From NCBI GenBank assembly GCA_018830945.1, contig JAHJRD010000089.1:1-43248 (forward strand): DNA of 43,248 bases. The letters run 5' to 3'. The DNA is from Nanobdellota archaeon. GTDB taxonomy: Archaea; Nanobdellota; Nanobdellia; SCGC-AAA011-G17; GW2011-AR17. Within the stretch, counting starts at the first letter, position 1, and the number at the start of each line of letters is the position of its first letter. The notes under the pieces were generated by a model. It was not told the origin of the DNA. It made no database searches and saw only the letters and a program-made list of their open reading frames with translations. This document shows, one piece after another, positions 1,105-29,718 of this stretch. The translations under genes and the position numbers were made by a program.

Positions 1105-1860
1105 ATGAAGAAACCAATCATTGAACTTAAGGATGTATGGAAAATATACAGAATGGGCGAGACAGATGTAGAAGCGCTGAAAGGCATAAGCATTAGCATA
1201 AATGAGGATGAGTTTGCGAGCATTCAGGGGCCTTCTGGCTCAGGAAAAAGCACTCTCATGCATCTTGTTGGCTGCCTTGACCTTCCTACAAAAGGGCATG
1301 TTTTTCTTGACGGGCATGACATATCAAAGCTGACTGAGAGCCAGCTTGCAACCATCAGGGGCAAAAGAATAGGGTTTGTGTTTCAGGCATTTAACCTGAT
1401 TCCAACGCTCACTGCAATGGAGAATGTCATGCTGCCGATGATATTTAATAATGTTTCAAGGTGGAAAAGAGAGAAAACCGCGACTGAATTGCTTATGGAG
1501 ATGGGGCTTAAGGAAAGAATGAATCATAAGCCAAACCAATTGTCCGGGGGGGAACAGCAAAGAGTTGCAATTGCAAGGGCGCTTGCCAATGATCCTGAAG
1601 TGATTCTGGCGGACGAGCCGACAGGCAACCTTGACTCAACAACAGGCAAGCATATCATGGACTTGATAAGGCATCTTTCCAAAGAGCACAAGAAAACAAT
1701 AATCATGGTCACACATGACCCTTACATTGCGAGTTTTGCAAAAAAGAAGGTTGTGATTGTGGACGGCAAGGTTGGGCATGACCATGAATACCTGAAGAAA
1801 ATTTTATGGAAATCAAACCATGAAGATAAGAAGGGAAACCCTAAAGGAGGTAAAAAATGA
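1105..1860 (+). CDS. ABC transporter ATP-binding protein, MacB/LolD family
   Basis: Walker [10 protein letters not shown], signature [15 protein letters not shown], Walker [13 protein letters not shown]; the ORF opens at 1021 but [13 protein letters not shown] at 1105 is the likely start. Confidence 0.93.
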
Positions 1861-3071
1861 AAAAAATAGTTTTAATGGGTATAATAGCGCTTTTGCTGCT
1901 GTCGACAATGGCAGCTGCAAGGCAGACAGTGGTGACAAAAGCAAGCGAGATGAAGATAGATCTTTTAAGGTATGATCCGGCTCCTGTGCAGCCAGGGGAT
2001 ACAACAGACATCTGGTTTGAGATAATAAATTTGAAGGATACTGCCATAAATGATTTTGACGTTACATTTGTTGAGGAATATCCTTTTAAGCTGGTGTCTG
2101 ACAAATCAGTGCATTTCAATAGGCTTGACACTGGTGAGAAAATCCAGTTTAAGTTTACTGTTGAGGTAAACAAGAATGCGCTTGAAAGCAATAATAATGT
2201 GTTTATTCAGTATTATTCAAGGCAGGCAGGCATTACAACAAGCGAGCCATTTGTGGTATCAGTAAAAAGGCTTGGCTCTATTGTTTCAACATCTGTGGGA
2301 ATAAGCCAGGCAGAAAATAATGCTGCAATGATTGCTCCAGGCGCAGTGGCTAATGTTGAAGTTTCAATACAAAATTCAGAGGATTCTGTCATGAAGGATG
2401 TAAGGGTAACATTGGACTTGTCTTCAACTACAATGCCATTTGCAACTGTCGGAATGACTGCAGAGCAAAAGCTGAAGCAAATAAACCCCGGAGCATCTGC
2501 AAGTGTAGCATATAAGCTTGTTGCGCTGCCTGACGCAGCCGCAGGCGTATACAAAGTTCCAATCACAATAAGCTATTATGATGCAGTTGGAACACTTCAT
2601 GAAACAGAAGATCTTGTCGGCATAATGGTTGGGGCAGAGCCAAAGCTTAAGGTTGTGCTTGACAGCACTGAGCTTACAAAAACTACAAAGAACGGTAATG
2701 TGGTGCTGAAGATAATTAATTACGGCACAACTGATGTAAAGTTTGCAATGCTTACTGTAATGCCTGGAGAGAATTATGGGCTGCTTTCAACTGATGAGCA
2801 TTATATAGGCAATATTGACTCTGACGACTATGAAACAGTTGAATTCAGGCTTAATGCAAACGCAGACAGCCTAACAATTCCTGTGCACCTTGAATACATG
2901 GATGCCAATAATGCGCAGTACTCTGAAAGCCGCAATGTTGAGATAATGCTTTACAGCCCTGCTGACTTAGGGCTAAAGCAGAGCAAGGCATGGCTTTACA
3001 TTGTGGTGCTGATTGTCATTGGCGGCGCATACTTTGGCTACAGGAAATATAAAAGCAAGAAGCAGAAATGA
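1857..3071 (+). CDS. Secreted CARDB/COG1361-like protein with C-terminal TM, ABC operon partner
   Basis: Signal peptide, Ig-like repeats (PVQPGDTTDIWFEIINLKDTAINDF), C-terminal TM; ATGA overlap with both neighbours. Confidence 0.75.
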   Translation: MKKIVLMGIIALLLLSTMAAARQTVVTKASEMKIDLLRYDPAPVQPGDTTDIWFEIINLKDTAINDFDVTFVEEYPFKLVSDKSVHFNRLDTGEKIQFKFTVEVNKNALESNNNVFIQYYSRQAGITTSEPFVVSVKRLGSIVSTSVGISQAENNAAMIAPGAVANVEVSIQNSEDSVMKDVRVTLDLSSTTMPFATVGMTAEQKLKQINPGASASVAYKLVALPDAAAGVYKVPITISYYDAVGTLHETEDLVGIMVGAEPKLKVVLDSTELTKTTKNGNVVLKIINYGTTDVKFAMLTVMPGENYGLLSTDEHYIGNIDSDDYETVEFRLNANADSLTIPVHLEYMDANNAQYSESRNVEIMLYSPADLGLKQSKAWLYIVVLIVIGGAYFGYRKYKSKKQK

Positions 3072-4279
3072 TAGCTGATTATTTCAGGCTTGCCTTTAAG
3101 GGTATTGCCAGGCGAAGAGTGAGAAGCTGGCTTACCCTTATTGGAATTTTTATAGGGATTACAGCAGTTGTATCCCTTATTACATTAAGCCAGGGCATGC
3201 AGGATGCGATTACAGAGCAGTTTTCTAAATTAGGCTCAAACAGGGTGATGATTACTCCTGGAGGAAAAAGCTTTGGGCCTACTGCAGGCGCTGTCATGAC
3301 AGCCAAGTTTGATGACGATGACGCGGATACTGTTCGGCGTGTAAAAGGGGTGGATGATGCTCTTGGGCCGTTGATACGGACAGCAAGCGTTGAATTCAGG
3401 GGGGAAACAAAGGCCATAATGACCTTTGCCTATCCAACAAGCTCCAATGCCATAAGGATTCTGGAAAGAAATGGGGTTATTGATATTGAGGATGGAAGAA
3501 TGTTCCGGCCTTCTGACAGATATGTTGCAATTCTTGGCTATACAAATGCATACGATGATTTTGACAAGGAAGTCAAGGAAGGGAATACTATTAAAATTGA
3601 GGATTATGAGTTTAAGGTAATCGGAATAAGGGGAAAATCCGGCTCGTTCCAGGACATTGCAATGGGCATACCTCTTGATGTGGGGAGGGAGATATTTGAT
3701 GAAAAAGAAGAAGTATCGTCTATCTTTGCGATAATCAAGCCAGGATATGATACCGGCGCTGTTGCAGAAGACATTAAAAAAGCATTAAGAAAGCACAGAA
3801 ATGTTGAAGAAGGCGAGGAAGATTTTACTGTTAATTCCCCGCAGATGCTTCTTGAGTCTGTCACAATGATAACTGATGTTGTGAAAGCTGTTTTAATTGG
3901 AATTGCCGCTGTTTCTATTTTGGTTGGTGGCATAGGGATAATGAACACAATGTACACTTCTGTTGCTGAAAGAACAAAAGAGATTGGAATAATGAAGGCA
4001 ACAGGCGCGAGAAACTCCTCAATCATGATGCTGTTTCTTGTGGAATCAGGCATGCTTGGGCTTATTGGCGGAGTGTTCGGGCTTGCGGCTGGATATGGCA
4101 TAAGCATGGCTGCTGGAAAGATTGCAATGGATGCTGCAGGCATTGAAGTGATTGTGGCTGTTACGCCTGCAATGGTTATTGGCGCCTTAGCATTCTCTTT
4201 TGTGCTGGGAGCGCTTTCAGGGGTTTTTCCTGCGAGAAAAGCATCAAAATTACAGCCAGTGGAGGCGTTGAGGCGATGA
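3068..4279 (+). CDS. ABC transporter permease, MacB/FtsX-like
   Basis: RSWLTLIGIFIGITAVVSLITLSQGM; GGIGIMNTMYTSVAERTKEIGIMKATGA; C-terminal PARKASKLQPVEALRR. Confidence 0.92.
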   Translation: MIADYFRLAFKGIARRRVRSWLTLIGIFIGITAVVSLITLSQGMQDAITEQFSKLGSNRVMITPGGKSFGPTAGAVMTAKFDDDDADTVRRVKGVDDALGPLIRTASVEFRGETKAIMTFAYPTSSNAIRILERNGVIDIEDGRMFRPSDRYVAILGYTNAYDDFDKEVKEGNTIKIEDYEFKVIGIRGKSGSFQDIAMGIPLDVGREIFDEKEEVSSIFAIIKPGYDTGAVAEDIKKALRKHRNVEEGEEDFTVNSPQMLLESVTMITDVVKAVLIGIAAVSILVGGIGIMNTMYTSVAERTKEIGIMKATGARNSSIMMLFLVESGMLGLIGGVFGLAAGYGISMAAGKIAMDAAGIEVIVAVTPAMVIGALAFSFVLGALSGVFPARKASKLQPVEALRR

Positions 4280-5487
4280 TAAAAGATTTTGCAATGCTCA
4301 GCATTTCAACATTCAAGGCAAGGAAAATGAGGTCTTTGCTTACAATGATGGGAATTTTCATAGGGGTTGCATTGCTTGTTACGCTTGTTTCACTTGGAAG
4401 GGGATTGGAAGATTCTATAACGCAGCAGTTTGAAAGCCTTGGCACTGACAAGATATATGTCTTTCCAGGCACAAATATGTTTTCAGCGGCAATCTCAGAC
4501 CAGACATTTTCTGAATCAGAGTTTAATGCGCTTGAAAAAATAAAAGGCGTAAAGCTTGCGGCAGGCATGGTGTTTAGAATTGGAAGAATTGAATATAATG
4601 ATGAAGTAAAATACGTAAGTATTGTAGGCATCCCTCTTGATGAGAAAAGAGAAGTTTTCAAAAGCGTGCATAACATGAAGGTTGAGCAGGGAAGGGACTT
4701 GAAGAATGGCGATAAATACAAGGCGCTTGCCGGCATTGATCTTACTCTTAAGGATATTGTATTTTCAAAAGGCCTGCGGCCAGGAGACAAGGTTATTGTT
4801 GAAGGGCAGGATTTTGATGTTGCAGGGGCTCTTGCCAGAATAGGAAACCCTGACGATGACAGCATGCTGCTGATCCCTCTTGGCACTGCAAGAGAATTGT
4901 TTAACCAGGAGGACAGCTATGGCTATATTTTACTGCAGGCGCAGGAAGGGGCCTTGCCTAAAGCTATTGCAGAAAGTGCTGAGAAAAAGCTGCGCTCAAT
5001 AAGAAACCTGGATGAAGGCGATGAGAATTTCAGCATACAGACAACAGATGACTTAATGGAAACATTTGCTGACATACTGGCAATTGTGCAGGCTGTTTTA
5101 TTAGGTTTGGCTGCGATTTCTTTGATTGTTGGGGGGATTGGCATAATGAACACAATGTACACTGCAATTATTGAAAGAACAAGGCAGATTGGCGTGATGA
5201 AGGCGATTGGCGCGACTAACTGGCATATTGCTTTAATCTTTCAGATTGAGTCTGGATTGCTTGGCTTGGCAGGAGGCATTGTTGGTGTCTTGATTGGAAT
5301 GGGCATTGGAAAGCTGATAGAGTTTGCTGCGCATTCTGCCAATCTTACGTTCTTTAATGTGTCATTTCCTCTTTGGCTGATTGTTGGAGCATTGTCTTTT
5401 TCAACTATCTTGGGTATTGTATCTGGTGTATTGCCTTCAATGCAGGCTGCGAAGATGAAGCCGATAGATGCCCTGCGCTACGAATAG
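4276..5487 (+). CDS. ABC transporter permease, MacB/FtsX-like (paralog of the previous gene)
   Basis: MRSLLTMMGIFIGVALLVTLVSLGRGL; GGIGIMNTMYTAIIERTRQIGVMKAIGA; C-terminal MKPIDALRYE. Confidence 0.92.
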   Translation: MIKDFAMLSISTFKARKMRSLLTMMGIFIGVALLVTLVSLGRGLEDSITQQFESLGTDKIYVFPGTNMFSAAISDQTFSESEFNALEKIKGVKLAAGMVFRIGRIEYNDEVKYVSIVGIPLDEKREVFKSVHNMKVEQGRDLKNGDKYKALAGIDLTLKDIVFSKGLRPGDKVIVEGQDFDVAGALARIGNPDDDSMLLIPLGTARELFNQEDSYGYILLQAQEGALPKAIAESAEKKLRSIRNLDEGDENFSIQTTDDLMETFADILAIVQAVLLGLAAISLIVGGIGIMNTMYTAIIERTRQIGVMKAIGATNWHIALIFQIESGLLGLAGGIVGVLIGMGIGKLIEFAAHSANLTFFNVSFPLWLIVGALSFSTILGIVSGVLPSMQAAKMKPIDALRYE

Positions 5488-20887: not shown

Positions 20888-21724
20888 TTACTTGGAAAAT
20901 CCTTTCCACTCTTTAATCGCCCTGTCATACCTGTCCAAAGTTCCGGTATCCATCCACTGGCCTGCAAAGTTATAGCCGTATAATTTGCCTTCAGCAGCTA
21001 TCTTTGGAAAAACATCCTTTTCAACCATTGCAAAACCTTTCTTTGGCACATACTTTAAGACATCAGGCTCTAAAATATAAAGCCCTGCATTGATTAAATT
21101 AGACGGGGGCGCAGGCGGTTTTTCAATGAACTCAACAATTTTCTGCCCCTGCATGCGCGCAACGCCATAATTTGAAGGGTCTGGGACTGTTGTCAGTGCG
21201 ATTGTTGCCAGCGCATGGTTATTCTTGTGAAAAATGTACATGTCAGTCAAATCAATGTCTTTCAGCTCATCTGCATTGCACATCACAAACGGCTCTGTAA
21301 GGTATTTTCTTGCAAGGTTCAATGGCCCTGCAGTGCCTAACGGCTCTGTTTCCTCAATATAATGTATTGTAACTCCGAACCTTTCCCCATTCCCAAAATA
21401 TTCCTTGATTTGGCTGCCTTTGTATCCGATTGAGAGTATAATTTCATTAATGCCAAACTTCTTGAAAAGCTCTATCCCATACTGAAGTATTGGCTTTCCA
21501 TGCACAGGCAGTAATGGCTTTGGAATTTCATCAGTAATCGGCTTAAGCCTTGTTCCTTTGCCGCCTGCAAGTATCAGCCCTTTTCTTAAGGTGTTTGCGC
21601 CGATTGATTCGCGCAGGATGAGCTCAACAGCATGGCTTCTGTTCTTTATTGTAGAGCCGTTTATTCTTTTGTCAATCTGCTTAAGAATATTTGACTCAAT
21701 TGTTAATGTAACTCTCTCTTTCAT
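20888..21724 (-). CDS. Ribbon-helix-helix domain fused to NDP-sugar nucleotidyltransferase
   Basis: N-terminal VTLTIESNILKQIDKRI...RSHAVELILRE (RHH-like), then GLILAGGKGTRLKPITDEIPKPLLPVHGKPILQY. Confidence 0.88.
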   Translation of the reverse strand: MKERVTLTIESNILKQIDKRINGSTIKNRSHAVELILRESIGANTLRKGLILAGGKGTRLKPITDEIPKPLLPVHGKPILQYGIELFKKFGINEIILSIGYKGSQIKEYFGNGERFGVTIHYIEETEPLGTAGPLNLARKYLTEPFVMCNADELKDIDLTDMYIFHKNNHALATIALTTVPDPSNYGVARMQGQKIVEFIEKPPAPPSNLINAGLYILEPDVLKYVPKKGFAMVEKDVFPKIAAEGKLYGYNFAGQWMDTGTLDRYDRAIKEWKGFSK

Positions 21725-23024: not shown

Positions 23025-23948
23025 TCAGTCAAAAAGAATTCTTGTATTGCCATTATACACTTCCCTATAAATATCTTCGCCGTGCCTTTCCTCTGCAAGG
23101 CGGAAAAGGCAGTAGCCCATTCCCATAAGGCATTTTTTATAGTCTTTCGGCATTTTTTCCTTATCAAGCTTTTGCGCTATTTGAGCAAATTCTGTCCTGT
23201 GTATCTTCAGGCATTCAATGCCTTTTTTCAATTGTTTTCTTGCTTTATTCAGCGCAATTGCATGCTCGCCTTCGTCTTCCCTTAACATTAATCTTCCTGC
23301 AACGCTTTCTGCAAACCCATTCTCAAAAGGCAAATAAGCCATAGGCTCCCTTCTTATCCTTTCAACGCTTGCAGCTCTTGTATATTCCCGCAAAAGCATA
23401 TGCTTGAAGAGGTTGCGCCTTGAGCGCAGTCCTATAATCGTATTTCGTTCATGATTATATTCGCCATAAGCATAAAGCGAACTGCCGAACAATGCCTTGC
23501 TTGTGCTTATGCCAAGCCAGACTATTCCGGCAAGAAGTGTCACCTGCCCCAAGGCTGTAACGAAGGGCGGCATGTTTTGTAAAAATGGTATATTGGGCGG
23601 GTAAGAATGCATTGCCCCTATGCCAGCCAGAAACCCGGTTGCCAGAACCATCTGGTGGTACCCAAACAGGAAGCTTTTTGCGTATAGCGACGGATTATAT
23701 TTGCCGGCATCCAGTGAAAAGAAACTGTCAACACTTTGCTTTGCTTCTTTTAATATTTCTTCCACGCCTGCTTTCTTTACCTTTGTTCCGGCATTGCCCC
23801 AAAAAGGAAGCTTTCCCCTTGCTTCTGTGTCTGTTTTTAATATTGCTTCTAAAGAGGCACGGTTATCCCTTTCAGAAAGATACCTATAAATCTCCTCTGC
23901 TCTCACTCCTGCGATAAATCCATAGTTTTTTTGTTCTTCCAATGCCAT
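23025..23948 (-). CDS. Membrane protein distantly resembling 26023..26823, HExxH position degenerate
   Basis: Two TM helices; LLREYTRAASVERIRREPMAYLPFENGFAES and C-terminal LFRLAEERHGEDIYREV. Confidence 0.55.
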   Translation of the reverse strand: MALEEQKNYGFIAGVRAEEIYRYLSERDNRASLEAILKTDTEARGKLPFWGNAGTKVKKAGVEEILKEAKQSVDSFFSLDAGKYNPSLYAKSFLFGYHQMVLATGFLAGIGAMHSYPPNIPFLQNMPPFVTALGQVTLLAGIVWLGISTSKALFGSSLYAYGEYNHERNTIIGLRSRRNLFKHMLLREYTRAASVERIRREPMAYLPFENGFAESVAGRLMLREDEGEHAIALNKARKQLKKGIECLKIHRTEFAQIAQKLDKEKMPKDYKKCLMGMGYCLFRLAEERHGEDIYREVYNGNTRILFD

Positions 23949-23975: not shown

Positions 23976-25898
23976 CTATCTTCTCAGCAGCAGCTTGAGG
24001 AAAAACATTGCAAGGATTACCAATACCAAATCACCGGCAATCCAAAACATCCTCTGCTTGTCTGCAAACAGCCATTTTGTCAGGCTTCCTGTATCAACAA
24101 CTGTGTCTTCTGAAGCAGGCGCTCCCTCTTCAGGCAGCTGCACGTCAACGCTTGCCATTTGTGAGAAGATAAGCCCTTTTTCATCCCTTAAGTTAACCCT
24201 GAAATTGTGCACTCCTTCTGCAACATTGTCCTTTAGCTGCATGTAAATGTAGGCATGGTACTGCTCGCCTGCGCCGAGTGATGAAGGCGCTTCTGTTGCT
24301 GTTACTGTTGACCAGCCTGTGGCCTCTGTTACGTCAACAGTAAACGCAGCTGGCTTGCCTCCCTTGTTTTCAATAATTAAAGCCAATACAAACTTTTTCT
24401 TGCCAGGAGGAAGCACCATGTTCTCTTCTTCAATTGAAAGCATAAGCTTTGCCTCGCTCATCAGCTTTTTTGCCTCTGCATCGCACTTGCCTGCTGTCAA
24501 AAGTATTTCTTTTGAATCAGAATCGCTGTTCCCATAGTATACTGTCGCAGTAAGCTTCTCGCTGATTTCCTCAACATTTCCTATGGAAAACACGAACGTT
24601 TTAGTATGCTTGTTGCCGTTTTCATCATATGCATTTATATCAAAGTCATCTGATTCAATGTCAAGCCCGAATGCCTTTGCCTGCAGCCTGATATAAACAT
24701 TCTCCTGGTCCTCAAGCCCTGTGTTCTCAACCTCTACGGTTGCTGTGACTGTGTCTGTGCAGGTGGGGTTTGCATTGCTTACTTTTAATTCGCTTATTAC
24801 AACGCTCTCATCATCCCTCTCAAGCTCAACCTCAATCCTCTCATAATCGCAGTGCTCATCCTCGTCTCCAACCTTGTATGCCTTGACAAACAGGTAAAAC
24901 TCATCATCCTCATCAATGTCTTTTGAAGGCACTCTTAATGTCAATTCAAGTGTTTCAGAGTCTCCGTCATCAATGTATTCAGAGTCAGACACTGCAGATG
25001 CAATGTCCTTGTTCTCGTCAAGATTATATAATATGGCTTCAACAGCAACATTCAGCTTCCTGTTGTAATCATTGTCAACATTAACCTTGATTTCCATGTC
25101 TTCGCCAGGAGTGAAGCTGTCGCCATTGTCTGGCTTTTCAATGCTTATCCTTAAGTATCCGGCTCTTCCATCGCTGCATATTTCAGGCTGGACCTCAACC
25201 TCAAGAGGAACTGTCCTTTCAATGCCGTTTGCAAGAACATGGATTGTGCCTTCATAAGTGTCCAGGTCAACATGCCTTTCAATGTCTGCTGTGACTGTGA
25301 TATCAGCTGACTGCCCTGGCGCAAGGCTTGCTAATGATGAGAAGTCAAATATAATGCCGTCCAGGTCATCATCTGTGAATGTTCCTGTGTAGCTCAATGC
25401 AAATGATGTCAGAGTTGTACTGCCTGTGTTTCTTATTGTAAAGACAGCTGATTCAAGGTCATCTGCCTGGGCTTTTATGCTTACCTTGGATTGAGTTATT
25501 GAGAAGTCTGTTTTTGCATTGATTGTAACGCTGTAGGATTCTGTGTCTGTTTGGTTTCCGTTTCCTGCGGTTATTGTGCCTGTGTATGTTCCTGCAGCAA
25601 GGCTTGGAAGCGTTACTGAAAATGTTTTAATTGCTGTTGAGCCTGCATTAAGGTTTACTATCGGCTCTAATGAAGGGGCTGTGATTGAATTGCCGTTGTA
25701 TGTTAATGCAGTGCTTGTTAATGTTACTGAACTTATGTTTGTGTTGCCGCCATTGGAAACAGTAATATTAAGGCTTACTGTGTCGCCAGGGTTGCCTGAC
25801 GCAGTTGAAATGCCTGTTATGCCTATGTCTGCTGCTGCTGCGCATACTGAAAGCAGCAAAAGCGCTAAAACCATGGTTAATGCGAGTTTTATTTTCAT
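23976..25898 (-). CDS. Surface (S-layer-like) CARDB-repeat protein with C-terminal TM
   Basis: Signal peptide; Ig/CARDB repeats (GNPGDTVSLNITVSNGGNTNISSV; CTDTVTATVEVENTGLEDQENV); C-terminal TM. Confidence 0.8.
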   Translation of the reverse strand: MKIKLALTMVLALLLLSVCAAAADIGITGISTASGNPGDTVSLNITVSNGGNTNISSVTLTSTALTYNGNSITAPSLEPIVNLNAGSTAIKTFSVTLPSLAAGTYTGTITAGNGNQTDTESYSVTINAKTDFSITQSKVSIKAQADDLESAVFTIRNTGSTTLTSFALSYTGTFTDDDLDGIIFDFSSLASLAPGQSADITVTADIERHVDLDTYEGTIHVLANGIERTVPLEVEVQPEICSDGRAGYLRISIEKPDNGDSFTPGEDMEIKVNVDNDYNRKLNVAVEAILYNLDENKDIASAVSDSEYIDDGDSETLELTLRVPSKDIDEDDEFYLFVKAYKVGDEDEHCDYERIEVELERDDESVVISELKVSNANPTCTDTVTATVEVENTGLEDQENVYIRLQAKAFGLDIESDDFDINAYDENGNKHTKTFVFSIGNVEEISEKLTATVYYGNSDSDSKEILLTAGKCDAEAKKLMSEAKLMLSIEEENMVLPPGKKKFVLALIIENKGGKPAAFTVDVTEATGWSTVTATEAPSSLGAGEQYHAYIYMQLKDNVAEGVHNFRVNLRDEKGLIFSQMASVDVQLPEEGAPASEDTVVDTGSLTKWLFADKQRMFWIAGDLVLVILAMFFLKLLLRR

Positions 25899-26022
25899 TT
25901 TTTGCCCCCTATATATATATTGCCTCTAAAGGCTGTTATCTACTCTCTCTTTATAAATGTTTTGTAGAATTACGAGTATAGAGTAAAAGAAAAGCAAACA
26001 AGGATAAAAAGGCGGCTGGAAA

Positions 26023-26823
26023 TCAGGCTTTTCTGTGTTTTCGTTCAAGCATTTTAAGCAATACTTTTTCAGGCTTGTTCGACATTATGATTTCTCTGTA
26101 TACGCCTCTTCCATGCATTTTTTCAGCGAGAAGAAAAGCAGTTGTGCCTACAGCTGTGTCAGCAAGCCGCTGCCCTTCATTTCCCTGCCTGATTCCTGTT
26201 TCACGCAGCGCTATGTAATTGCCTGTTGCCTCTATCAGCGAGCTGTACACATACGCACAGGCTGCTCTATCTGCATTTTCAGTTCCTTCATCCAATGCAG
26301 TTATTGCTGCGCAGCCGTTTCCACATCCTTCTGCAAGGGGCCTGTTATAGAGCCATTTAAGCGGTTCTTTTGTGCAATACTCAACATGGTGGCTGTATTC
26401 ATGCGCAACAAGAAACGGCAGCGCTGCTGTCTCATTGCGTTTTGCTATTATTATACTGCCTTTGAACTGCTCATAAATCCCTTCTGCTTTTGAATCGGCA
26501 TATGCTATCTTTGGCAGCATTGTTTTACAGCCAAGCAAATCATCAACCCTGCCTGACATCCTGAGCAGCCAGTAATCAAGGCACCTTCTTCTGTTTCTGC
26601 CGCCTGTACAATCTTCAAGCTGTGACGAAAGCGAGCCAATGACTTCATCAACCATTGCAAGATTCTGCGGCGCTGAAAGCGCTTTCAAAATGCGGTTCCT
26701 TGCCTCAAACCCGGACTGCCTTACTTCTTCAAGCGCAGTGTCAAGCCTCATAGGAGAATTGCTTATTTCATCAATCCACAGCGCAAGCTTGTTATTTTTT
26801 ACAAGAAGATTTTTTTTGCTCAT
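26023..26823 (-). CDS. HEYSH zincin-like metallopeptidase
   Basis: LPFLVAHEYSHHVEYC at 26389-26403 followed by RPLAEGCGNG. Confidence 0.65.
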   Translation of the reverse strand: MSKKNLLVKNNKLALWIDEISNSPMRLDTALEEVRQSGFEARNRILKALSAPQNLAMVDEVIGSLSSQLEDCTGGRNRRRCLDYWLLRMSGRVDDLLGCKTMLPKIAYADSKAEGIYEQFKGSIIIAKRNETAALPFLVAHEYSHHVEYCTKEPLKWLYNRPLAEGCGNGCAAITALDEGTENADRAACAYVYSSLIEATGNYIALRETGIRQGNEGQRLADTAVGTTAFLLAEKMHGRGVYREIIMSNKPEKVLLKMLERKHRKA

Positions 26824-27557
26824 GCTCGCCTCCTTTCATAGCGCGCAAGGTACGGCCAGTCTTTGCAAGTGGAAACAAGCCTGAACCCATATGCAAAGTC
26901 ATCCAGCTCTTGTGTTTTTCTTGCAACAAGCTTACTGCCTGTATAAGTGATTATTTCAAATCCTGGAAGCGAGCCTGTTTTCCTTATCATGCTGAAAACA
27001 TTATTCTCCGGCAGATGCATAAACTGCATTCCGTTAAAGCACAGCACAGCGCCAATATTTGCCTGCGTTGCAGCATTAGAGAATACCCTCAGCGGATTCT
27101 TTGTCCAGAGAAGCGCGAAAACACATGTTACAATGTCTGGCTTTTCCTTAAATACAGCAGTTTCCATATTGCCTTGTATAAGGACAGGCGCATATTTTTC
27201 TGCTAGAAGCTCAAGGACATCCGGTGTTGTTTCCCCTATAGTGCTTGTGTCATTCGGCAGGGCGTCATATCCATATGTTCTCAGGCGCCTGCCAATCCCT
27301 TTTTCTTCCAAGTATTTCTTTCCTTCCCTTAATCCAATTCCGTGCCCGCATCCCAGGTCAACCCAGACAGCATGCCTCTGTCTCTGAACATAATCCATAA
27401 TAAGCCCTTCCATATTGGTTATATTGCCTTTCGGATTGTTTCCAAAAATCTTTGAATACTCAAAAAGCCCCCTGCCCCTGTCTGTCACATCCAGCCTGCC
27501 TTTTCCCTTTGGGTTTTTCCTTAGCTGAAGCTTTCTCTGCTCTTCTTCAAGCGTCAT
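26820..27557 (-). CDS. Class I SAM-dependent methyltransferase
   Basis: AVWVDLGCGHGIGLREG (motif I), DIVTCVFALLWTKNP, GAVLCFNGMQ. Confidence 0.75.
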   Translation of the reverse strand: MTLEEEQRKLQLRKNPKGKGRLDVTDRGRGLFEYSKIFGNNPKGNITNMEGLIMDYVQRQRHAVWVDLGCGHGIGLREGKKYLEEKGIGRRLRTYGYDALPNDTSTIGETTPDVLELLAEKYAPVLIQGNMETAVFKEKPDIVTCVFALLWTKNPLRVFSNAATQANIGAVLCFNGMQFMHLPENNVFSMIRKTGSLPGFEIITYTGSKLVARKTQELDDFAYGFRLVSTCKDWPYLARYERRRA

Positions 27558-28033
27558 ATCCTAACCTCCTTTATCCTGCCAAGGCTTATGTTTATTTCCC
27601 TCATGCCGCAGAGCACTTCCTGTGCTTTTGCAATACTGTCACCCATAATAGCTGTTAATAAATCCGGCAGTACCTCTATTGTTCCGGGCATATAACTTAA
27701 ATCTCTTCCTGTTTCTATCAGGATAAGCGGAATTGCCAAATCTGCTTTTTTTGCAGCAGCAAGCCTGTGGTGCCCGTTGTAAACAATAAACCTGCCGTAT
27801 TGCCTTAATTCCGCAGGTGCCTCTATTACGGGTATAGGAGGCACATAGTCAGGGAATTCTGCTGGGCCTGCATAAACATTCATGTGCTCCATAAAATGAT
27901 TTCCAAGATAGAGCAGCTCCTCAAGCGGCCTGTTCATCCGGCTTTCTTTCTTTGCCTTGCGCATAAGCCCCTTTGTTGTTCTTTCATGCTCGTAGGGTAT
28001 TACAAGGCTGGCATCGGCGATTACAACTCTCAT
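27554..28033 (-). CDS. ParB/sulfiredoxin-superfamily-like protein
   Basis: IPVIEAPAELRQYGRFIVYNGHHRLAAAKKADLAIPLILIE. Confidence 0.7.
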   Translation of the reverse strand: MRVVIADASLVIPYEHERTTKGLMRKAKKESRMNRPLEELLYLGNHFMEHMNVYAGPAEFPDYVPPIPVIEAPAELRQYGRFIVYNGHHRLAAAKKADLAIPLILIETGRDLSYMPGTIEVLPDLLTAIMGDSIAKAQEVLCGMREINISLGRIKEVRI

Positions 28034-28200
28034 ATCCGCACCTCAATTTTATCCTTCAGCAAAACAACTCCCTTCCCTGACTTTGTGTTAACCTCGTGGA
28101 AATGGATTTCAGTGCTTTCATTCCAGCCAAGGCTCCTGATTAATTCAATCGGGATTGAAACCTTGTACTGGTGGCGGTTACGTGTGATTTTTCGCTTCAT
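28030..28200 (-). CDS. AbrB-like small DNA-binding protein, 56 aa, absent from the ORF track
   Basis: MKRKITRNRHQYKVSIPIELIRSLGWNESTEIHFHEVNTKSGKGVVLLKDKIEVRI*; swapped-hairpin pattern; 4-nt overlaps on both sides. Confidence 0.75.
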   Translation of the reverse strand: MKRKITRNRHQYKVSIPIELIRSLGWNESTEIHFHEVNTKSGKGVVLLKDKIEVRI

Positions 28201-28937
28201 TGTGAGGCTCCTGTGATTATCTTATAAATTTCTTCTTTAATTTCTTGAGTCCGACCTGTAACAAAAAGATAGTCTCCTATTCCCCTGCACCCTTCTGCAT
28301 CAGGCAAGCCTGTTTTAGTGTGAACCTGCCCAATATCCATAGCCCTGCTATTGCCGGAAATTATTGTAAGCATATCTTTTTCATCCACGCCTCTTGCTGA
28401 GAGATGATATGGCAGTGAGATGTCCCTTTCAATCTTATCGCGGTAAGCATGCGCTGTGCCTATAAGCACAATTGCTTTCCCTTTGCCTGCTTTAAGAATG
28501 TAATTAGCCCATAACGCAATGTCTGCTGTGCTGCCTGCAAAATGCCGAGGGTGGTCTATTCCGTGCACTTCAACTCCCCTTTCAATTGCATGCCTTACAA
28601 TTGCATCATATTTCATCGGGTCCCAGCCATAAACCCCGCCAGGGCACTTCAGGCTGTTTCCTTGCTCTACATAGCTGCCCCTTTCCAGCGCTTCAAGGAA
28701 AAGTGTTGAATAGTTTCCTGTTTCAATAAGCCTGGCAACCAAAGCCCCTACTAATATTTCTCTGTGATTCTCTCCTATGATTGTGAATCTTGCAGGGCTT
28801 GCTGCGATTTCTCTTATTACATCTGCATTATGATGGCTTGTGGATGAGTATGTCTTAAGATTTATGCCTCTTAATTCTTCTAGGTCAAATTCATATTTTT
28901 CTATGAGTTTGTCTTCAAGTGTCATAATACCCTTCAA
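28197..28937 (-). CDS. EreA/ChaN/TraB-superfamily-like protein
   Basis: FTIIGENHREILV...LFLEALERGSY...GKAIVLIGTAHAYRDKI; an alternative start at 28925 is possible. Confidence 0.6.
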   Translation of the reverse strand: MKGIMTLEDKLIEKYEFDLEELRGINLKTYSSTSHHNADVIREIAASPARFTIIGENHREILVGALVARLIETGNYSTLFLEALERGSYVEQGNSLKCPGGVYGWDPMKYDAIVRHAIERGVEVHGIDHPRHFAGSTADIALWANYILKAGKGKAIVLIGTAHAYRDKIERDISLPYHLSARGVDEKDMLTIISGNSRAMDIGQVHTKTGLPDAEGCRGIGDYLFVTGRTQEIKEEIYKIITGASQ

Positions 28938-28940
28938 ATG

Positions 28941-28970
28941 ATTACTTATTTATTACTATTTTGGAGTAAT
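28941..28970. promoter_or_regulatory. Candidate AbrB operator/promoter of the five-gene operon
   Basis: ATTACT at 28941 and 28952 with inverted AGTAAT at 28965; minus-strand TATA-like cttataaat just upstream. Confidence 0.4.
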
Positions 28971-29112
28971 GTCTTATTTATAAGCCTTGCGGTTCGTAAG
29001 AACAATGGGTTTTAGGCTATTAAAGCGCTGTTTAAGCGGCCTTTGTAAGCTGCAAAACACGCATGATATTTGCATTCCAAATCCTTATATATTAGCATTC
29101 CATCACAGCAGT

Positions 29113-29718
29113 ATGCAAAGCCTTGAGCATATTATTGACGAGAGAATAAAGTCTTTCCCTGTAACAACTGAAACAGGAAAGCTTATGATGTTTCTTGAAA
29201 AGATTAAGGAGAAACACAAACCAACATATCTGCACTCTCTAAGAGTCGGAATGAAATGCATGGATGCTGCTTCTTTGCTTGAATATAATGAAAAAGAGAT
29301 GTTCGATGCAGGATTATTGCATGACGTGGGGAAGCTTGCGGTGCCTGTTGAGCTGCTTAAAAAAACCAACTTTACAAAAGAAGATCATAAGGCCATGGAT
29401 ATACATCCTGTATATTCTTATCATATTCTTCTTAACGAGCTTCCTTTGACAGCAGAGGTTGCATTAAGGCACCACCGCTATGAAAGCAAAAAAAAGCCTT
29501 ATCCTCAAAAGCTGCCTGCAGTAAGAAGGGACATGGACCTTACTAAAATCTGCGCATATGCAAGGCTTCTTAGCGTTATAGACTGCTATGATGCAATGAC
29601 CACAAGGCATGACAACCATCAGCTTGAAGGGCATAATTATAGAGATGCTTTGATGGCTGAAAGAAAGGGCATGGAAGGGCTTATTGAGAGGCTTTTTGAG
29701 GCTAAAATTCTTGCTTAA
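29113..29718 (+). CDS. HD-domain phosphohydrolase (HD-GYP-like)
   Basis: HSLRVGMKCMDAA...GLLHDVGKLAVPVELL...HPVYSYHIL...ALRHHRYESKKKPYP; TATA-like ttatatatt upstream; start trimmed from 28987. Confidence 0.82.
   Translation: MQSLEHIIDERIKSFPVTTETGKLMMFLEKIKEKHKPTYLHSLRVGMKCMDAASLLEYNEKEMFDAGLLHDVGKLAVPVELLKKTNFTKEDHKAMDIHPVYSYHILLNELPLTAEVALRHHRYESKKKPYPQKLPAVRRDMDLTKICAYARLLSVIDCYDAMTTRHDNHQLEGHNYRDALMAERKGMEGLIERLFEAKILA

Follow-up and report, generated by a model that had tools for sequence, protein, structure and literature searches.

Comparing one chromosomal locus across four species of a single Nanoarchaeia genus, we showed that a small AbrB-like gene, its promoter element and its flanking genes stay constant, and that the enzyme genes around the AbrB gene are replaced between species. 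The locus is probably a site of controlled enzyme exchange and not one fixed five-part machine, a reading which covers both its architecture and its regulation. The window, a stretch of 43,248 nucleotides, is contig C81 of a Nanobdellota genome (G000; 1.5 Mb, 95% complete). Because the same element and flanks accompany other enzymes in the congeners, the five genes found in this window do not constitute a fixed set.

The operon and its enzymes

Reading the open reading frames of the window gave five genes (P0001 to P0005) on the minus strand between 26023 and 28925, all of them, the short AbrB-like one included, already present in a preliminary description of this DNA. The operon, its control region and its flanks are as follows.

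29005 to 29718, plus strand: HD-domain protein, conserved left flank before gyrB/gyrA
28975 to 28983, minus strand: TATA box TTATAAATA of the operon promoter, read from the sequence and aligned in four congeners
28937 to 28970, minus strand: putative AbrB operator, from repeats and the conservation of a 21-mer
28197 to 28925, minus strand: P0001 (242 aa), hydrolase resembling the TIKI/ChaN/EreA superfamily, by motif and weak profile
28030 to 28200, minus strand: P0002 (56 aa), DNA-binding protein of AbrB/MazE fold, constant operon member, by weak profiles
27554 to 28033, minus strand: P0003 (159 aa), small ParB/Srx-like protein with a YNGHHR motif, by weak profiles
26820 to 27557, minus strand: P0004 (245 aa), class I SAM-dependent methyltransferase, Methyltransf_23 above gathering score
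26023 to 26823, minus strand: P0005 (266 aa), putative metallopeptidase of gluzincin type, HEYSH-x19-EG, by motif
23976 to 25898, minus strand: putative S-layer protein (NF033506, E=5e-55), conserved right flank with its own promoter, outside the operon

Consecutive genes overlap by the 4 nt ATGA at all four junctions (28197-28200, 28030-28033, 27554-27557 and 26820-26823), as described earlier, and a purine-rich Shine-Dalgarno-like sequence lies before every operon start, inside the preceding gene. The first gene had been drawn from TTG 28937; we place its start at ATG 28925, because the TTG sits at the border of the 21-bp element conserved in the promoter, and in the congener STB_88 the homologue opens with the same MTLEDK. 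The idea that the overlaps are remarkable in themselves was rejected: of about 35 close pairs on the same strand in the regions sampled, 11 overlap by exactly 4 nt, which is the commonest spacing, and a second run of three occurs in the window at 1105-5487, so that the overlap indicates an operon and nothing beyond. Among ORFs of at least 40 aa, checked for a RiPP precursor peptide gene, AbrB was the only short gene in the operon. The operon proteins matched no component in PADLOC and most had no match above cut-off in Pfam, NCBIfam or PHROG, which agrees with the earlier statement that no named system fits. Profile searches did not resolve the families to housekeeping functions, and a specialised role is therefore possible.

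The enzyme families are putatively named by motif and by weak profile matches, with P0004 above cut-off. P0001 presents an ExH motif (E52, H54), E78 in LEAL and a later H159, a 2His/2Glu pattern kept entirely in its STB_88 homologue. This arrangement is that of the TIKI superfamily (ChaN, EreA/Bcr135, RRSP), and in the endopeptidase RRSP the pattern is essential for activity (PMC6254334). Unlike for established members, the likeness of P0001 is one of motif, and the sequence match lies below the Pfam cut-off (PF04187, ChaN/Tiki, E=0.0018 for the STB_88 homologue); a Foldseek search with its AlphaFold model gave generic alpha/beta matches alone, with no clear fold match. P0004 scored 29.3 bits against PF13489 (Methyltransf_23; cut-off 27); it has a homologue in the congener UBA9640, and a scan of the genome contig collection returned no relatives. 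In P0005, residues H141, E142, H145 and E165 (HExxH-x19-EG) are invariant in seven relatives, and there is weak similarity to the active-site region of M1 aminopeptidases (HExxH-E). The protein falls within a genus-level branch (support 99/100) of a zincin family found in 29 of 371 genomes of the phylum; its AlphaFold model (pLDDT 41) was unusable.

About 40 of the 159 residues of P0003 match ParB profiles, weakly, and a role as ParB partition protein was rejected on account of this short match and because no parA lies beside the gene. Paralogues of P0003 are found beside RNase HII in G000 and in STB_88 (L019 5018-5768 and L020 5618-5782), convergent to it, two in tandem across a contig break in the former and one in the latter. 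Directly after the S-layer gene, the window also encodes a relative of the zincin family (23025-23948, minus strand) with REYTR in place of the lost HExxH; since the syntenic genes of STB_88 and UBA9640 keep HExxH, this protein is likely a pseudo-enzyme in the window species.

Constant frame and exchanged genes

About 100 related genomes were searched for four of the five proteins, and 30 for AbrB. The syntenic locus, running from the gyrB/HD side to the S-layer gene, was found in all three congeners, STB_88 (G001), Yes70-37 (G002) and UBA9640 (G003), and the S-layer flank in G001 and G003. Since the operons of G002 and G003 are split over contigs, gene order was read within pieces and AbrB was seen where the contig reaches, which is not the case in G002. 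The contents are listed below, TGL-TPR denoting transglutaminase-like proteins with TPR repeats.

STB_88, between HD/gyrB and the S-layer gene: TGL-TPR, EreA-like, TGL-TPR, AbrB, DUF3419-like methyltransferase, TGL-TPR, all with 4-nt overlaps
Yes70-37: DUF1284-like, TGL-TPR, TGL-TPR, then another TGL start at the contig end
UBA9640, piece 1: DUF1284-like
UBA9640, piece 2: TGL-TPR, AbrB, zincin, a 271-aa protein of unknown family, TGL-TPR, TGL
UBA9640, piece 3: TGL, TGL, DUF1284-like, DUF3419-like methyltransferase, then the S-layer gene

The TGL-TPR proteins carry a Transglut_core2 domain (PF13369, E=1.1e-6 in P0009) with invariant N-C, H and E residues. They share the N-C...H...E triad and the TPR repeats with SirB1-like proteins, and differ from known PF13369-TPR proteins in being multiplied within one operon in the congeners and missing altogether from the window genome. 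Within the genus, homologues of the operon proteins are scattered, and those of the EreA-like, ParB-like, methyltransferase and zincin proteins also occur singly elsewhere. Searches with single sequences detected no homologue in the other genera of the family; the one exception farther out was a distant zincin belonging to a different family of the same order. The zincin tree does not place the two operon zincins as sisters, though its support here is weak. The proteins are unequally conserved: AbrB is 80-82% identical between species of the genus, whereas the EreA-like protein reaches 44% and the genus zincins 24-28%.

The gene starts suggest how replacement may have occurred. A start, ATGACGCTTGAAGA, is common to genes of unrelated families and was seen in this operon only; its 14-mer ATGACNCTTGARGA occurs exclusively at operon gene starts, namely those of the EreA-like gene in two species, P0004, a DUF1284-like gene and many TGL genes. 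Homologues located outside the operon (the methyltransferase at L021 and the EreA-like genes of genomes G106 and G255) lack a start of this type. Starts reading M-x-[LI]-E-[DE] were present in 4 of 12 non-TGL operon genes versus 3 of 143 background genes (Fisher p=7e-4), and these three background genes themselves sit at this locus. Because the start is common to unrelated families and confined to the operon, these data suggest cassette replacement, in which incoming genes would have taken over the body of a resident gene behind its retained start. Alternatively, selection may have favoured a single initiation sequence. Like this locus, integron cassette arrays and polymorphic toxin loci combine a constant control and start region with variable coding cassettes, but here no integrase or attC-like element was seen at the junctions and the common sequence is the 14-bp gene start alone.

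The AbrB protein and its candidate operator

The ATTACT/AGTAAT repeat reported earlier at the promoter is real and lies just downstream of the TATA box (28983-28975): ATTACT at 28970-28965 is inverted relative to AGTAAT at 28957-28952, and a second AGTAAT follows 11 bp on, at 28946-28941. The 21-mer AGTAATAAATAAGTAATCATT (28957-28937) is identical in four species and stands behind the TATA box in each. With up to 3 mismatches allowed it has one copy per congener genome and zero in reversed controls; in 257 Gb of scanned genomes it was recovered at these operon loci only. Between congeners, the operon promoters share 21-47 bp, versus 8-18 bp for ordinary control promoters; the S-layer promoter is intermediate, with 11-27 bp in common. 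In the latter (25898-26000, minus strand), a 27-bp block TTTATAAAGAGAGAGTAGATAACAGCC is identical in G000 and STB_88, not in UBA9640, and strong promoter conservation is therefore not unique to AbrB control. The operon element lies far beyond what chance would give. AGTAAT-N4-5-AGTAAT has seven sites in the 337 kb sampled, which are exactly the four operon promoters and three distant AbrB promoters, versus a mean of 0.43 tandem sites for 60 composition-matched hexamers (AGTAAT included) and 3 for the next best.

The profile matches of P0002 are weak (PF04014, E=0.011, below cut-off; phrog_661, E=6e-4; weak matches to AbrB structures in the PDB). The protein is of domain length, its 56 aa corresponding to the DNA-binding domain alone, without the C-terminal toxin-binding segment. 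A profile search recovered members of this AbrB subfamily from three distant families (G352, G222 and G147; 47-61% identical), and in all three genomes tandem AGTAAT hexamers at a 10-11 bp step lie behind the TATA box of AbrB itself. The neighbours of these genes are unrelated to the operon: a protein of 703 aa, the end of a contig, and two proteins that look exported, one of them with the GAHG...ASC pattern described below. The link between protein and site is therefore independent of operon content, and the possibility that AbrB travels with TGL proteins was rejected since its relatives in other families have other neighbours. From these observations we infer that AbrB would bind the AGTAAT half-sites, and its autoregulation at this candidate site is well supported by the comparison of promoters. 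Likewise supported is the earlier view that the genes form a single transcriptional unit equipped with a DNA-binding regulator and a promoter repeat of its own.

In the AbrB-led transcript of G147 (contig C21, L117 4255-5673, minus strand), a lipoprotein-like protein of 472 aa has no Pfam match and displays GAHG...ASC, which by reading of motifs resembles caspase/CHAT-type peptidases.

The arrangement recalls that of autoregulated AbrB/MazE operons, such as that of MazE6, which autoregulates via an 18-bp operator (PMC9477884): a small DNA-binding protein is encoded in the operon that it is expected to repress, and the operator overlaps the promoter. It differs from them by the absence of a toxin partner and of a toxin-binding tail, by the position of the AbrB gene in the middle of the operon and by a candidate operator in which AGTAAT is repeated in tandem every 10-11 bp, downstream of an archaeal TATA box. 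Each part resembles something known, but the literature searched contained no description of this operon, nor of an AbrB-operator pair framing an exchanged-enzyme locus in DPANN archaea.

Possible mechanism and function

Together, these features would describe an accessory operon of one Nanoarchaeia genus, located at a constant chromosomal site, coupled in translation and autoregulated through AbrB. AbrB would bind AGTAAT half-sites spaced by roughly one helical turn immediately downstream of the TATA box, blocking its own promoter until a signal relieves the block; the whole operon would then be translated in a single coupled run. New genes may enter behind the start module ATGACGCTTGAAGA, after a Shine-Dalgarno sequence, and an insert would then be expressed and controlled at once. 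The payload would consist mostly of hydrolases of peptidase-like fold (TIKI/EreA-like, zincin, transglutaminase-like-TPR) together with methyltransferases, and it could serve, under certain conditions, to process or modify proteins or peptides inside the cell, its specificity changing rapidly in the manner of conflict or scavenging systems.

Such a protein- or peptide-processing role is our tentative preference. Catalytic residues are kept in the EreA-like, zincin and TGL proteins. Zincin and transglutaminase-like genes are also neighbours elsewhere: in G000, contig C109 (L023 2934-6634) holds in a row two radical SAM genes, a transglutaminase-like gene and a zincin, and in Yes70-37, contig C135 (L026) a zincin/transglutaminase-like pair lies beside a nitrilase-like gene. 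Conditional processing is favoured because three unrelated peptidase-like folds recur in the operons and because of these neighbourhoods; the theme leaves out the ParB-like and DUF1284-like proteins. A broader proposal, possible and somewhat more doubtful, is that the AbrB-operator pair serves as an expression platform of Nanoarchaeia, in which unrelated enzymes would be swapped at a fixed locus behind one start module and would answer to a shared switch for stress or conflict. The zincin, TIKI, transglutaminase-like and distant, possibly caspase/CHAT-like payloads would then form a new system of regulated intracellular proteolysis.

Roles in conflict and in scavenging are about equally probable. 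A locus of defence or inter-microbial conflict, in which AbrB would both sense and repress, with the swapped enzymes serving as effectors directed at mobile elements or partners, is rather unlikely: turnover of content at a fixed site, autoregulation and peptidase-like folds speak for it, and AbiE-like genes (by reading) adjoin the operon in Yes70-37 and UBA9640, but PADLOC is silent, no nuclease or toxin domain was recognised, and no relatives occur in viral contigs, plasmids or phages, so that these collections give no sign of a mobile-element origin. Bacterial AbrB reports the transition state, and AbrB might similarly report starvation in a nutrient- or peptide-scavenging operon through which a reduced archaeon recycles host peptides. 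The hydrolase content, the AbrB-type control and the small genomes (1.2-1.6 Mb) are consistent with this explanation; it is unlikely, however, as metabolic operons normally keep their enzymes, this one is without a transporter, and two methyltransferase types and DUF1284-like proteins fit poorly.

Very improbable is a fixed five-component system for defence, toxin modification or peptide maturation with its proteins in a set ratio, the stoichiometric system that the preliminary description had drawn from strict coupling. The four ATGA couplings, the Shine-Dalgarno-like sequence at each junction and the lack of a named match would suit it, but it is largely refuted by the congeners: the five genes occur together in no relative, the three syntenic operons keep the element and carry other enzymes, homologues are found alone, and overlapping by 4 nt is usual here. 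A type II toxin-antitoxin unit of MazEF kind, with AbrB as antitoxin, would account for the AbrB/MazE fold and the operator repeats at the start site, but can be practically dismissed given a 56-aa AbrB without toxin-binding tail, neighbours of no toxin family and partners that vary by species.

DPANN archaea are largely uncultured, and to our knowledge almost nothing is known of how they control and renew their accessory genes. The regulator-site pair, a 56-aa protein and about 34 bp of DNA, can be tested in vitro without culture. The locus illustrates clearly how whole genes can be replaced within a coupled operon whose promoter, regulator and gene starts are fixed, and it ties several unnamed enzyme families to a common switch.

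The gyrB of Yes70-37 (contig C124, L037 1482-6998, minus strand) is an ORF of 1838 aa with intein splicing and LAGLIDADG domains; it contains three intein-splicing stretches, and the gyrB of the window (635 aa) has none. In the window at 20888-21724 (minus strand), a sugar nucleotidyltransferase (PF00483) presents an N-terminal segment of about 45 aa which reads like a ribbon-helix-helix domain, an unusual fusion.
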